NCBI RefSeq assembly: GCF_003054225.1
Contig: NZ_QBKQ01000001.1
Coordinates: 992,001 to 1,056,000, forward strand
Origin: Christiangramia gaetbulicola
GTDB lineage: Bacteria; Bacteroidota; Bacteroidia; Flavobacteriales; Flavobacteriaceae
Direction of reading: 5' to 3'
DNA: 64,000 nucleotides
A program made the position numbers and the translations under genes. The notes under the pieces were generated by a model. The model saw only the letters and a program-made list of their open reading frames with translations, ran no database searches and was not told the DNA's origin. Shown here in pieces: positions 22,679-32,422 of this stretch (positions are counted from its first letter, which is position 1; each line of letters begins with the position of its first letter).

Positions 22679-24577
22679 ATGAGTGATGCTTTAAAACACG
22701 AATGCGGAATTGCCCATATAAGGCTTTTAAAACCTCTGGACTATTATAAGGAGAAGTATGGGACTGCATTTTACGGGGTAAATAAAATGTACCTGATGAT
22801 GGAAAAACAGCATAACCGTGGGCAGGATGGCGCTGGTTTTGCAAGCATCAAACTCAACACGATCCCTGGCGAACGTTATATAAGCCGGGTAAGATCTAAT
22901 CAGGCTCAACCAATTCAGGATATTTTTGAACAGATCAATCAAAGGATCAACGACGAAATTAAAGCCAATCCTGAGTATGCCGACGATACAGATCTTCAAA
23001 AAAGATATATCCCTTACCTAGGCGAGGTTTTCCTGGGACATGTTAGATACGGTACTTTTGGGAAGAATAGCATAGAAAGCGTACACCCTTTCCTTAGGCA
23101 GAACAACTGGATGCATCGTAACCTGATCGTTGCCGGAAACTTCAACATGACCAATGTAAACAAGCTCTTCAATAATCTTGTTGAATTGGGACAGCACCCA
23201 AAGGAAAGAGCAGATACGGTTACAGTGATGGAAAAGATCGGTCATTTCCTGGATTCTGAAGTAAGAAAACTGTACAAGAAACTTAAAAAGGAAGGCTACT
23301 CCAAGGTACAGGCATCACCAATTATTGCTGAAAAATTGAATGTAGCCAAGATCCTTAAGAAATCTTCAAAGAACTGGGATGGTGGGTACGCTATGGCCGG
23401 ATTAATTGGTCATGGAGATTCATTTGTATTACGCGATCCTGCCGGAATAAGACCAGCATACTATTATAAAGACGACGAAGTTGTCGTGGTGGCTTCAGAA
23501 AGACCGGTGATACAAACCGTTTTCAACGTTGATTTTAAAGATGTACATGAATTACCTCCAGGTAATGCTATCATTACGAAAAAGAACGGAGAGGTATCAA
23601 TTACAGAAATCATTGAACCACTTGAGAGAAAAGCATGTTCTTTTGAAAGAATCTACTTTTCCAGAGGTAGTGATGCAGAGATCTACGAGGAAAGAAAAAT
23701 GCTGGGTAGGCTATTGATGCCAGACGTTTTGAAGTCTATAGAGCATGATACCCTTAAAACGGTATTTTCGTTTATCCCTAATACTGCCGAAACATCGTTT
23801 TACGGAATGGTGGAAGCAGCCCAGGATGAACTGAACAAACAAAAGAACGAAGCAATCCTGGAAGAAAAGGAAACACTTACCGATGCCAGGCTTCAGGAAA
23901 TACTTTCACATCGCTTAAGAACCGAGAAGATCGCAATTAAAGATGTGAAGCTAAGAACATTTATTACCGAAGACAGCAGCCGGGACGATCTCGTTGCTCA
24001 CGTTTATGATGTTACTTATGGTGTAGTAAAACCGGAGGACAATCTTGTTATTATAGATGATAGTATCGTAAGGGGAACCACTCTTAAGAAAAGTATCATA
24101 AAGATGATGGACAGGTTAAAACCTAAGAAGATCATCGTGGTTTCCTCTGCTCCTCAAATTAGATATCCAGATTGTTACGGTATAGATATGGCACGCCTGG
24201 AAGACCTGGTAGCATTTAGAGCCGCGCTGGAACTTCTAAAAGATGAAGGTAAATATGATATCGTAGAAAAAGTTTACGAAAAATGTAAACAACAGGTAGA
24301 CCTGGATGATCGCGAAGTACAGAATTTCGTAAAGGAGATCTATGATCCTTTTACCGATGAACAAATTTCAGATAAGATCTCAGATTTGCTTTGTGATGAT
24401 GATGTGAATGCAGAAGTGAAGGTCATCTATCAAACGGTTGACAATCTTCATAAGGCATGTCCGAAAAATCTTGGTGACTGGTATTTTACCGGAGATTATC
24501 CAACGGCCGGTGGTAACAGGGTTGTTAATCGAGCATTTATGAACTTTTTCGAAGGGAAAAAGGATAGAGCGTATTAA
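22679..24577 (+). CDS. Amidophosphoribosyltransferase, long Bacteroidota type
   Basis: First committed enzyme of purine synthesis or a close paralogue: glutaminase half plus PRPP transferase half. Cys9 in KHECGIAHI is the expected class II glutaminase nucleophile after loss of the leader. Further glutaminase markers are HNRGQDGAG and GHVRYGTFG, and LRDPAGIRP follows. The PRPP-binding loop is LVIIDDSIVRGTTLKKS (about residues 457-473). At 632 aa it is about 130 residues longer than the usual PurF (about 500 aa), with extra segments such as around residues 370-430. No propeptide-like Cys2 is present. It may be the only PurF or a paralogue; the rest of the genome is needed. Confidence 0.88.
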   Translation: MSDALKHECGIAHIRLLKPLDYYKEKYGTAFYGVNKMYLMMEKQHNRGQDGAGFASIKLNTIPGERYISRVRSNQAQPIQDIFEQINQRINDEIKANPEYADDTDLQKRYIPYLGEVFLGHVRYGTFGKNSIESVHPFLRQNNWMHRNLIVAGNFNMTNVNKLFNNLVELGQHPKERADTVTVMEKIGHFLDSEVRKLYKKLKKEGYSKVQASPIIAEKLNVAKILKKSSKNWDGGYAMAGLIGHGDSFVLRDPAGIRPAYYYKDDEVVVVASERPVIQTVFNVDFKDVHELPPGNAIITKKNGEVSITEIIEPLERKACSFERIYFSRGSDAEIYEERKMLGRLLMPDVLKSIEHDTLKTVFSFIPNTAETSFYGMVEAAQDELNKQKNEAILEEKETLTDARLQEILSHRLRTEKIAIKDVKLRTFITEDSSRDDLVAHVYDVTYGVVKPEDNLVIIDDSIVRGTTLKKSIIKMMDRLKPKKIIVVSSAPQIRYPDCYGIDMARLEDLVAFRAALELLKDEGKYDIVEKVYEKCKQQVDLDDREVQNFVKEIYDPFTDEQISDKISDLLCDDDVNAEVKVIYQTVDNLHKACPKNLGDWYFTGDYPTAGGNRVVNRAFMNFFEGKKDRAY

Positions 24578-24599
24578 AATTTACCATTTAACTAATAAT

Positions 24600-24630
24600 C
24601 ATGCACTTCATCTATTATTCTTTGTGCATG
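24600..24630. repeat. Inverted repeat upstream of small-RNA copy 1
   Basis: CATGCAC (24600-24606) and GTGCATG (24624-24630) form a perfect 7-bp dyad with a 17-nt spacer. It is found only before copy 1, between the amidophosphoribosyltransferase stop and the array. Confidence 0.45.
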
Positions 24631-24655
24631 AATCAATTCTATCTACTTTAGTATC

Positions 24656-24728
24656 ACCATAACATAAGTAGGTTAAGTTCATGGTAGATTTGGGGCAAAA
24701 AAAGGTGGAATTCATTCCGCCTTTTTTT
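24656..24728 (+). ncRNA. Candidate small RNA, copy 1
   Basis: 5' stem ACCAT (24656) / ATGGT (24681), G-rich linker GATTTGGGGC, then A-run, stem GGTGGAA / TTCCGCC and T-run (terminator, about 24697-24728). It differs from the other copies by A for G in the loop and by CACCAT for TACCAT, which shortens the first stem by one pair. The TACTTTA word upstream may be the -7 element. Confidence 0.7.
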
Positions 24729-24867
24729 ATTTTGTGCCGGCTCTGAATTTAGTAGAAAATTATTACTAATTTTCTTTCATTTATCTGTCTTTCAGCTATT
24801 TAACCATTTAAACGGCACTTCATCTAAAACATTTATTTCCAAGGAATATTCTTTTTATCTTTAATAT

Positions 24868-24940
24868 ACCATAGCATAAGTAGGTTAAGTTCATGGTAGA
24901 TTTGGGGCAAAAAAAGGTGGAATTCATTCCGCCTTTTTTT
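24868..24940 (+). ncRNA. Candidate small RNA, copy 2
   Basis: Same core as copy 1 with the full 6-bp stem TACCAT / ATGGTA. The promoter-like TATCTTTA lies just upstream. The terminator loop is TTCA. Confidence 0.72.
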
Positions 24941-25067
24941 ATGGAAAAAATTCAGATCAAATTTTGATATGCATGCATAACAAACTGCTTTTCAGTATTT
25001 TAACTAATATTTAAGCATTTCGTCTAAAAACTAAAACTACCCCGAATATTCGTTTTATATTCACTAT

Positions 25068-25141
25068 ACCATAGCATAAGTAGGTTAAGTTCATGGTAGA
25101 TTTGGGGCAAAAAAAGGTGGAATTCTATTCCGCCTTTTTTT
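25068..25141 (+). ncRNA. Candidate small RNA, copy 3
   Basis: Same core. The terminator has one extra base (GGTGGAA - TTCTA - TTCCGCC), which keeps the stem but shifts any reading frame. The upstream element TATATTCA is shared with copies 4 and 5. Confidence 0.72.
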
Positions 25142-25268
25142 ATGGAGTAAATTCAGATCAAATTCTCAAACAGCCACATAAAAAACTGTTTTTCAGTATT
25201 TTAACTAATATTTAAGCATTTCGTCTAAAAACTAAAACTACCCGAAATATTCGTTTTATATTCACTAT

Positions 25269-25342
25269 ACCATAGCATAAGTAGGTTAAGTTCATGGTAG
25301 ATTTGGGGCAAAAAAAGGTGGAATTCTATTCCGCCTTTTTTT
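25269..25342 (+). ncRNA. Candidate small RNA, copy 4
   Basis: Same core as copy 3, including the 5-nt terminator loop. The upstream block of about 125 bp is nearly identical to those of copies 3 and 5. Confidence 0.72.
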
Positions 25343-25469
25343 ATGGAATAAATTCAGGTAAAATTCTCAAATAGACCTATAAAAAACTGTTTTTCAGTAT
25401 TTTAACTAATATTTAAGCATTTCGTCTAAAAACTAAAACTACCCCGAATATTCGTTTTATATTCACTAT

Positions 25470-25542
25470 ACCATAGCATAAGTAGGTTAAGTTCATGGTA
25501 GATTTGGGGCAAAAAAAGGTGGAATTCATTCCGCCTTTTTTT
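25470..25542 (+). ncRNA. Candidate small RNA, copy 5
   Basis: Same core with the 4-nt terminator loop of copies 1 and 2, but the upstream block of copies 3 and 4. This mixture suggests recombination or gene conversion between units. Confidence 0.72.
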
Positions 25543-25567
25543 ATGGAATAAACTCAACCTCATTCAT

Positions 25568-25595
25568 AAAAAAAGGCCGCATGATGCGGCCTTTT
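25568..25595. terminator. Terminator downstream of sodA (minus strand)
   Basis: Stem GGCCGC / GCGGCC with loop ATGAT, flanked by an A-run on the left (T-run for the minus strand) and TTTT on the right, so it may work both ways. It separates the small-RNA array from sodA. Confidence 0.8.
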
Positions 25596-25620
25596 CCTAT
25601 ATCATTAGATATGCTTTGAT

Positions 25621-26229
25621 CTATTTCGCTTTAGCATAACGACTGGAAACTTCTTTCCAATCTATTACATTAAAGAATGCCTCGATATAATCTGGACGCT
25701 TATTTTGGTAATGCAGGTAATAAGCATGTTCCCAAACATCAAGTCCCAGAATTGGAGTTCCTCCACAACCTACTTCAGGCATGATAGGGTTATCCTGGTT
25801 TGGAGTAGAACAAACTTCTACCTTACCACCAGCATGAACACACAACCAGGCCCAACCAGATCCAAACTGACCTGCAGCTGCCTTAGAAAACTCTTCTTTA
25901 AAAGCTTCAAAAGAACCATATGCGCTATTTATAGCTTCAGCAAGTTCACCTTCAGGCTTACCTCCTCCATTTGGAGACATGATCTCCCAGAAAAGGCTAT
26001 GGTTATAAAAACCACCACCATTATTACGAACAGCCTTGTTAGACATATCAAGATTCTTCAAGATGTTCTCGATATTTTTCCCTTCAAGATCTGTTCCCTC
26101 AATGGCAGCATTTAATTTACTCGTGTAACCTGCGTGGTGCTTACCATGGTGAATCTCCATAGTTCTTGCATCAATATGTGGTTCCAATGCATCAAAAGCA
26201 TATTTTAATTTTGGTAACTCAAAAGACAT
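25621..26229 (-). CDS. Superoxide dismutase, Fe/Mn family
   Basis: Cytoplasmic enzyme converting superoxide to oxygen and hydrogen peroxide. Metal ligands fit the family: His in HHGKHHAGY, His in [12 protein letters not shown], and Asp and His in [16 protein letters not shown]. Length 202 aa is typical. The sequence FGSGWAWL precedes the third ligand. Iron versus manganese use cannot be settled by eye. It has its own -7 element and terminator, so it is a single-gene unit. Confidence 0.96.
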
Positions 26230-31009: not shown

Positions 31010-32422
31010 ATGAAACATCTTAGCAAAATTGTACTTGCCTCATTACTGATATTGGGCTTTACTTCGGTTAAGGCACAGGATGCTGACAACCCATGGGCAA
31101 TTGGTATTGGTACCAATGCTGTCGATTTCTATCCTGTAGGAGAAGATGCTCCTCGTGGAGGAATGTTCGACGAATATTTCAATTCAGGAGACCACTGGAA
31201 CGTTCTACCAGCTGTATCCAGATTAACAGTATCCAGATATATCGGTGCAGGATTTGTTGGGGAATTAAGTGGTACAATCAATTCAATTGATAACTATGGT
31301 GATAGATCTGTGGGAGATCTTGCATATTATGCAGTTGACCTTAGTGCAGATTACAGCCTTAGAGCAATGCTAAATGGCGGATGGTTTGATCCGGTAATTG
31401 GTATTGGTGGTGGTTACACTTGGATAGGTGACCAGGGTGGACAGGACATCGATAATGCCGATGCTGCAACCCTTAACGGTAAATTCGGAATTAATTTCTG
31501 GTTCTCAGACAACATTGCACTTTCTGTAGAGTCTAAGTATAAGCATGCTTTCGAACCTGAAAGCGCTAAGCATTTCCAACATGCTGCTGGAATTAAATTC
31601 ATGTTCGGTGGTAAAGATACTGACGGTGACGGAATCTATGACAAATATGATGAGTGTCCAGAAGAGCCAGGTCTAGAAGAGTTTAACGGTTGTCCTGATA
31701 CTGACGGTGACGGAATCGAAGATCGTCAAGATGCTTGTCCAGAAAAAGCTGGTTTAGCTGAATTCGACGGATGTCCTGATACTGACGGTGACGGAATCGC
31801 AGATCCAGATGATGACTGTCCAGAAGAAGCTGGTTTAGCTGAATTAAACGGTTGTCCAGATGCTGACGGTGACGGTGTAAGAGATGGTGAAGATAACTGT
31901 CCAGACGAAGCTGGTCCTGCTGAAAACGACGGATGTCCTTGGCCTGATACTGACGGTGATGGAATCCTAGATAAGGATGATGACTGTCCAGAAGAAGCTG
32001 GTCCTGCTGCAACTAACGGTTGTCCAGAGCCAACTGCTGAAGTTATTTCTGAATTGAACGAATATTCTAAAACTGTTCTTTTCGATCTTAACAAAGCGAC
32101 TATCAGACCAGAATCTGAAGAAGCACTACAATCTATCGTAGATATCATGAATGAGTACTCTACTACTATTTTCCACGTAGAAGGTCATACAGATAGCTCA
32201 GGTAGTGATGCTTACAACATGAAGCTTTCTAAAGAGCGTGCTGCATCTGTAGCTAAGTGGTTAGAAGAGCACGGTGTACCTGCGAAGAGATTAACTTCTG
32301 AAGGTTACGGTGAAACTCAGCCAATCGCTACTAACAGTACAGCTGCTGGAAGACAAGAAAACAGACGTGTTGAGATTTCTCTTGATAAAGACAGAGAGAT
32401 GAAAGACACATCTAACGAATAG
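31010..32422 (+). CDS. OmpA-family outer-membrane protein with TSP3 calcium repeats
   Basis: Likely abundant outer-membrane protein that ties the membrane to peptidoglycan. A signal peptide of 22 residues ends in VKA. Residues about 23-200 form an OmpA-type beta-barrel. Residues about 203-343 contain five thrombospondin type 3-like repeats with DTDGDGI ... CPEE.G words, expected to bind calcium. The C-terminal OmpA domain (about 350-460) has [26 protein letters not shown] and the RENRRVEI-type end. Length 470 aa. The repeats are also near-identical at the DNA level. It is a single-gene transcript with promoter and terminator. Confidence 0.95.

Follow-up and report, generated by a model that had tools for sequence, protein, structure and literature searches.

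An intergenic kilobase of the Christiangramia gaetbulicola genome carries one short sequence five times over, which raises the question of what these units encode, what their product might act on, and why several of them would be kept side by side. The original prediction, made from the letters of the window (the whole 64,000-nt stretch of DNA analysed here), had described a gene-free region holding five independently terminated copies of a candidate small RNA. Members of the Flavobacteriaceae matter as colonisers of surfaces and as degraders of polysaccharides, and to our knowledge little has been established about their post-transcriptional control.

A tandem array of five units between two conserved genes

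The five units follow one another at spacings of 212, 200, 201 and 201 bp, exactly as predicted, and TRF recovered the array with a score of 1227 at a 201-bp period (Table 1). No ORF of 80 aa or more occurs within 24578-25620, in line with the gene-free kilobase that had been claimed. The 75-nt copies share 88-99% ungapped identity with the reference copy, in keeping with the near-identical core of about 73 nt first described; in the two copies at 88% the loop of the terminator has 1 nt inserted. Copies 3-5 also have an upstream spacer in common, as is expected of recent tandem duplication. Searching the C. gaetbulicola genome by BLAST with the unit returned, beyond the five copies, weak partial matches (best E 0.139). 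A phage origin of the array was also considered, and the one blastn search gave no match.

The 5' end of the RNA had been placed near ACTATACC. This was approximately right but slightly displaced: given the spacing from the -7 box and the boundary of conservation, the predicted +1 is the A or G just before CCAT. The flanking genes are presumed, from their protein sequences, to be purF and sodA. Between the last copy and sodA, at 25565-25599, a GC-rich hairpin is bordered by runs of A and T; it is probably the sodA terminator and possibly bidirectional.

Table 1. Predicted features of the array and its flanks, in window coordinates.
Feature	Coordinates	Strand	Basis
purF (presumed), conserved neighbour upstream of array	22679..24577	+	ORF and synteny
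Putative activator box, copy 1 (two half-sites, 20-bp period)	24587..24615	+	putative, from sequence
-7 promoter element TACTTTAG of copy 1	24644..24651	+	TAnnTT element equally placed in other copies
sRNA copy 1 (predicted +1 to end of U tract)	24656..24728	+	sequence, folding, covariance model
Putative activator box, copy 2	24799..24827	+	putative, from sequence
sRNA copy 2	24868..24940	+	sequence, folding, covariance model
Putative activator box, copy 3	24999..25027	+	putative, from sequence
sRNA copy 3	25068..25141	+	sequence, folding, covariance model
Putative activator box, copy 4	25200..25228	+	putative, from sequence
sRNA copy 4	25269..25342	+	sequence, folding, covariance model
Putative activator box, copy 5	25401..25429	+	putative, from sequence
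sRNA copy 5	25470..25542	+	sequence, folding, covariance model
sodA (presumed superoxide dismutase), conserved convergent neighbour	25621..26229	-	ORF and synteny

A frozen 5' core precedes a covarying terminator

In the predicted fold of every unit, a 5' hairpin is followed by an unpaired linker and then by a strong terminator hairpin (z -3.8 to -4.1 relative to 200 dinucleotide shuffles), which agrees with the 5' stem and strong terminator first proposed for each unit. In partition-function folding the GUAGG apical loop of the 5' hairpin and the linker GAUUUGGGGC are unpaired, and the CAUGG segment is mostly paired within the predicted hairpin. Two-sided changes were found at four base pairs (25 cells), all of them in the terminator stem, and none of 500 shuffles scored as high. 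None of the 11 pairs of the 5' hairpin changed on both sides and three changed on one side; the structure of that hairpin therefore rests on folding.

Conservation is concentrated in the first 41 nt, ACCATA[AG]CATAAGTAGGTTAAGTT[CT]ATGGTAGATTTGGGGC, which are near-invariant in the genus and its neighbours and show some variation in more distant relatives. Mean pairwise identity was 0.93 over the first 30 nt, a value somewhat inflated by the anchoring of the rows on AGTAGGT there, against 0.33 from the box to the -7 element. Among 160 units at loci identified independently of the motif scan, GTAGG was present in all 160 and GATTTGGG in 159; across all 415 units the counts were 413 and 409, respectively.

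Two departures from this uniformity were seen between copies of the same locus. The last unit at L058, L059, L062, L063 and L067 has GGGACG in place of GGGGC and no discernible activator box upstream, so that one paralogue may differ in both regulation and seed. At L032, L034, L035 and L036 the first copy reads UUCAUGG and the second UUUAUGG; judged from their sequences, these are two paralogue types kept in parallel.

The family spans the Flavobacteriaceae and keeps a nearly fixed locus

The original prediction had proposed comparing the core with Bacteroidota genomes. By BLAST, the unit was found in 23 of 23 other genomes of the same genus and, elsewhere in the family, in 8 of 12; of 23 additional genomes from the order, 3 gave weak matches covering the terminator half only. 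A covariance model was then built from 30 distinct units, for which the regular expression used had caught all 88 of the 88 nhmmer units in the first relatives, so that none were lost there. At E<1e-9 this model matched 64 of 76 Flavobacteriaceae genomes and one of 319 other genomes of the order. In a phylum-wide sample, matches at E<=1e-5 were obtained for 33 of the 41 Flavobacteriaceae genomes and for none of the 354 others; the order-wide and phylum-wide searches both used stricter filters, under which weak matches are lost. Matches between E 0.01 and 5e-5, in 5 of the 76 family genomes and 56 of the 319 others of the order, are presumably terminator-like. A motif scan of named genomes gave at least 118 stretches, and the 80 matches listed include Maribacter, Zobellia, Flavobacterium, Winogradskyella, Aquimarina, Salegentibacter and others, along with unclassified Bacteroidetes drafts. 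The sole strong match outside the family (G426 contig 81, 4046-4117, E 8.4e-16) is in a 74%-complete draft from another family and reflects either transfer or contamination.

The position of the array is conserved along with its sequence. purF and/or sodA lay beside it at 30 of the first 30 loci and 29 of 29 in the next set; among 78 interior loci, 72 have purF on the upstream side, 69 have a convergent sodA on the downstream side, and 65 have both. Some copies lie elsewhere. Six loci had neither gene in view; three of these (L075, L126 and L136), which are interior or far enough from a tile end for other neighbours to be visible, hold single copies, the one at L126 near a gene that we take to be purC from its protein sequence.

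Copy number varies. The 78 interior loci carry one copy (29 loci), two (25), three (10), four (12) or five (2), so that 49 have at least two. All 24 same-genus loci have 2-5 copies, a count that leaves out opposite-strand terminator matches and includes a few loci cut by contig ends. The range across the family is 1-6, with up to six among 177 loci, many of them shortened by tile ends. Because copy number varies from 1 to 6 at what is nearly a single locus, the question of why several identical sRNA genes are kept is a testable one.

From these comparisons we consider it very likely that the array encodes a short RNA family that extends across the Flavobacteriaceae. The original suggestion of a multicopy trans-acting RNA family also draws support from a core conserved beyond its flanks, a covarying terminator, predicted promoters of its own and retention of 2-5 copies. 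Sequence and folding predict features expected of a trans-acting base-pairing sRNA: its own promoter and terminator, and a conserved unpaired seed. A near-frozen 41-nt core present in most sampled genomes of the family offers a concrete handle on post-transcriptional control in these bacteria.

Predicted promoters with an upstream direct-repeat box

To describe the promoters we tabulated 383 distinct upstream sequences, which leave out, from the 415 units in all, those without 85 nt upstream, duplicates and unanchored units. A TAnnTT -7 element is present in 381 of the 383 and lies exactly at -12 in 332, while a TTG or TTTG around -33 occurs in only 132. Further upstream, the half-site TT[CTG][AG][TA]C peaks at two places, with 208 occurrences at -69/-70 and 264 at -49/-50; other positions have at most 15 each, save for 26 inside the -7 region. 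By the strict half-site near -49, 273 of the 383 upstream regions have it and 110 do not. Each copy in the window is preceded by such a direct-repeat box at about -69/-49, and the repeat is clear in Flavobacterium-type copies, where it reads GCATTTCATC and GCCGTTCATC. When the whole C. gaetbulicola genome was searched with the in-genus box consensus, allowing up to three mismatches, only the five array copies were found.

Promoters that depend on an activator typically combine a weak -33 region with direct repeats placed two helical turns apart further upstream. The arrangement resembles LytTR promoters such as that bound by YpdB (PyhjX), in which two direct repeats of about 10 nt lie upstream of the promoter (PMC4847170). 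YpdB is reported to bind GGCATTTCAT twice (PMC4847170), a half-site that resembles GCATTTCATC of the Flavobacterium-type copies. LytTR regulators are described as recognising two repeats of 9-11 nt with 11-13 nt between them (PMC4847170), whereas the array half-sites have a 20-bp period and a spacer of about 10 nt, and for this reason the likeness is no more than suggestive. Ten LytTR matches were found in the genome, and the proposed activator of the box would probably be a response regulator of the LytTR type.

A giant Ig-domain gene shares the promoter box

With a promoter matrix built from 254 copies we scanned 1.256 Mb of C. gaetbulicola, roughly one third of its genome, together with 1.2 Mb from a relative, G015. 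The best match outside the array was the same gene in both, on contig C1 in each case, scoring 28.4 in C. gaetbulicola and 21.6 in the relative; it was also the only non-array match above 18 in either scanned genome. A Markov sequence of 1.06 Mb gave no match of 14 or more. Three weaker C. gaetbulicola matches (17.4, 16.9 and 16.7) had no counterpart at 14 or above in G015. The last of these belongs to a lipoprotein gene (C1 968376-968476), whose leader contains CCAAATCTA as well as TACTTATG; these words complement two stretches of the RNA.

The gene common to both genomes encodes a protein of 3391 aa with Ig-like and PKD-like domains and sits downstream of a dehydrogenase gene, which we take to be that of P5C dehydrogenase. 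Because its Por secretion tail lies just under the Pfam cut-off (23.3 bits versus 27), we infer only that the protein is probably a secreted adhesin. The box ahead of it scores at least 17 at 18 of 22 loci in the genus; in three related genomes (L369-L371) it is unrecognisable and scores low, and one further contig is truncated. A box common to both promoters suggests that a regulon exists and that its regulator could be found, and it is likely, going by these matrix matches, that the array and the adhesin gene answer to a common activator.

Candidate pairing between the RNA and the adhesin leader

The adhesin leader is about 110 nt long and contains the C-rich elements GCCCC(AC), GCCCC(AC) and ACCC(C)TAC. 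GCCCC and CCTAC are complementary to the two unpaired G-rich segments of the RNA, and their order would allow both to pair simultaneously. The leader alignment covers 20 of the 22 adhesin loci, L370 (not alignable) and L375 (at a contig end) having been dropped. The pattern GCCCC.{3,50}CCTAC occurs in 17 of these 20 leaders, which are orthologues and had been seen before the test was framed. In 125-nt upstream windows it occurs once among 1070 in C. gaetbulicola and once among 1036 in G015, at the adhesin gene both times. Relaxing GCCCC to CCCC gave 19 of 20 leaders, one C. gaetbulicola window and two G015 windows; 3 of the 20 leaders have the two words in reversed order, and for three altered 3' words the counts were 1, 0 and 0 of 20. 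With spacing of 8 to 45 nt and on both strands, the pattern is present 18 times in 2.11 Mb (1.056 Mb of C. gaetbulicola DNA) and 14 times in 2.4 Mb.

Calculated energies for duplexes between the RNA and each of the 20 leaders fell mostly within the range of shuffles and gave the target no support: at most 5 of 100 shuffles were as good for one of 20 leaders when the leader was shuffled and for two of 20 when the RNA was. Outside the genus, a leader match in G334, a genome of another genus, has both a box (18.1) and GCCCC..CCTAC; among 15 genomes of G334's genus the leader model matched 10 at E<=0.001. Across other genera of the family the model found 13 of 149 genomes at E<=0.01, including C. 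gaetbulicola itself, with all but two weaker than 1e-4. The rarity of the leader in other genera means that this target would be lineage-specific, though the RNA is family-wide. Taken together, we give the adhesin mRNA an even chance of being a direct target and, if it is one, lean towards repression over activation.

These elements can be assembled into a single scheme. An activator would bind the box and switch the copies on together, in which case copy number would set the dose; the same activator would switch on the giant Ig-domain adhesin. The RNA would then bind the C-rich adhesin leader through GGGGC:GCCCC and GUAGG:CCUAC in antiparallel order and tune its translation or stability, most likely downward, which would make the circuit an incoherent feed-forward loop. 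Different mRNAs would be its targets in other genera. The C. gaetbulicola genome has no Hfq or RRM match (see below), which suggests that the RNA would act alone or with some further protein. As a whole, the explanation we cautiously favour is a multicopy RNA that is induced by an activator, acts in trans and helps to regulate a surface protein. Its more specific form, a hard-wired circuit in which a dedicated regulator drives array and adhesin, the RNA docks at two points of the leader without Hfq or an RRM protein, and copy number tunes surface adhesion, is an idea we advance tentatively.

Comparison with known small RNAs

At the gathering score, Rfam gave only two tRNAs in the window; the covariance search of the core suggested by the original prediction thus returned no family. 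Flavo-1, the comparison it had named, was absent both at the gathering score and at E<=10. Permissive settings gave sub-threshold matches only for the array, the biologically closest being FopS (RF04319). Membership of FopS was rejected by the criteria applied, the five copies scoring 19.6-20.9 bits against a gathering score of 56. The word UUCAUGGU..AGAUUU is common to the array RNA and the Rfam FopS consensus and is weakly significant: for two variants of the core, 1519 and 336 out of 20000 shuffles, respectively, did equally well. The array RNA belongs to an sRNA family absent from Rfam.

FopS is reported to have a single-stranded 5' end with the R1' seed, to have the RRM protein RbpB as its partner and to repress susC-type mRNAs at the start codon (PMC11697453). 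Bacteroides FopS and the array RNA are both short multicopy Bacteroidota sRNAs in which a seed region is followed by an intrinsic terminator, and both have a Bacteroidota-type promoter (TAnnTT, 381 of 383 for the array) (PMC11697453). They differ in that the array RNA begins with a predicted hairpin rather than a single-stranded end, its copies are mostly at one fixed locus with a direct-repeat box before most of them, and the genome that carries it lacks an RRM protein. Pfam searches of the C. gaetbulicola genome gave no RRM (PF00076) match, with a positive control in Bacteroides ihuae, and no Hfq match.

The Qrr RNAs of Vibrio are several near-identical sRNAs under one response regulator, whose copy number sets the dose. 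Their genes are dispersed, driven by sigma54 and LuxO and dependent on Hfq. The likeness is that several near-identical sRNAs are proposed to be switched on together; unlike Qrr, the array is tandem at one locus, in a genome without an Hfq match. The Rfp RNAs of Flavobacterium psychrophilum are likewise conserved flavobacterial small RNAs; the transcriptome study of that species reports 85 new RNAs, and Rfp18 is described as pairing through a third stem-loop (PMC9723704). One of the 85 may be a member of the array family. Our literature search, drawing on partial texts, found no published description of a small-RNA array between purF and sodA.

Alternative explanations

The main rival to a base-pairing RNA is one that sequesters a protein, following the logic of CsrB and RsmZ: the frozen hairpin and G-rich linker would bind the protein, and additional copies would raise the dose of the sponge. 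That all of the first 41 nt are nearly frozen, paired and unpaired alike, exceeds what many base-pairing sRNAs need, and in upstream windows without the start codon there was no general excess of targets (4 observed versus 4.6 in trinucleotide shuffles at -20 kcal/mol). A sponge would leave aside that the unpaired segments have a specific complement in a conserved gene sharing the promoter box, and by Pfam neither Hfq nor an RRM protein is available in this genome, though other proteins are possible partners; we consider it unlikely. Less probable again is a FopS- or GibS-like sRNA that blocks start codons through CAUGG. Such an RNA would accommodate the word shared with the FopS consensus and a modest excess of conserved interactions at start windows. 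Among 611 ortholog pairs at -20 kcal/mol we counted 54, against 26.5 in dinucleotide shuffles (0 of 80 as high) and 39.4 (sd 8.0) in trinucleotide shuffles (1 of 40 as high). We read this excess as CAU triplets pairing with AUG. CAUGG itself is mostly paired, the shared word is of weak significance, the bit scores are far below the FopS threshold and the RRM partner is missing; in the 30 start regions inspected, out of 47 SusC/TonB-receptor matches, no clear pattern emerged. Perfect complementary runs of at least 9 nt in 1070 start windows numbered 15, versus a mean of 17.4 for 40 shuffled RNAs.

Two further readings dispense with a regulatory RNA, and both are very improbable. If the units did no more than terminate transcription or space the convergent genes purF and sodA, the gene setting would be explained, as would hairpins that score on the opposite strand too; a frozen 41 nt ahead of the terminator, a promoter, usually a box, and the keeping of several copies all argue the other way. 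The slightest chance goes to a micropeptide starting at ATGGTAGATTTG: some copies do have a short open frame, but a single-base insertion (GGTAAGATTT) and terminator-loop indels shift that frame between copies and genera.

Other observations

At C1 75403-76191 of the C. gaetbulicola genome, a gene that looks as if it encodes a polysaccharide-export lipoprotein has C-runs upstream, and in two genomes its start codon is immediately preceded by CCCCC. Elsewhere in the window, an 81-bp tandem repeat at 31616-32028 encodes acidic repeats of the DTDGDGI type, in what is presumably an OmpA-like outer-membrane protein.
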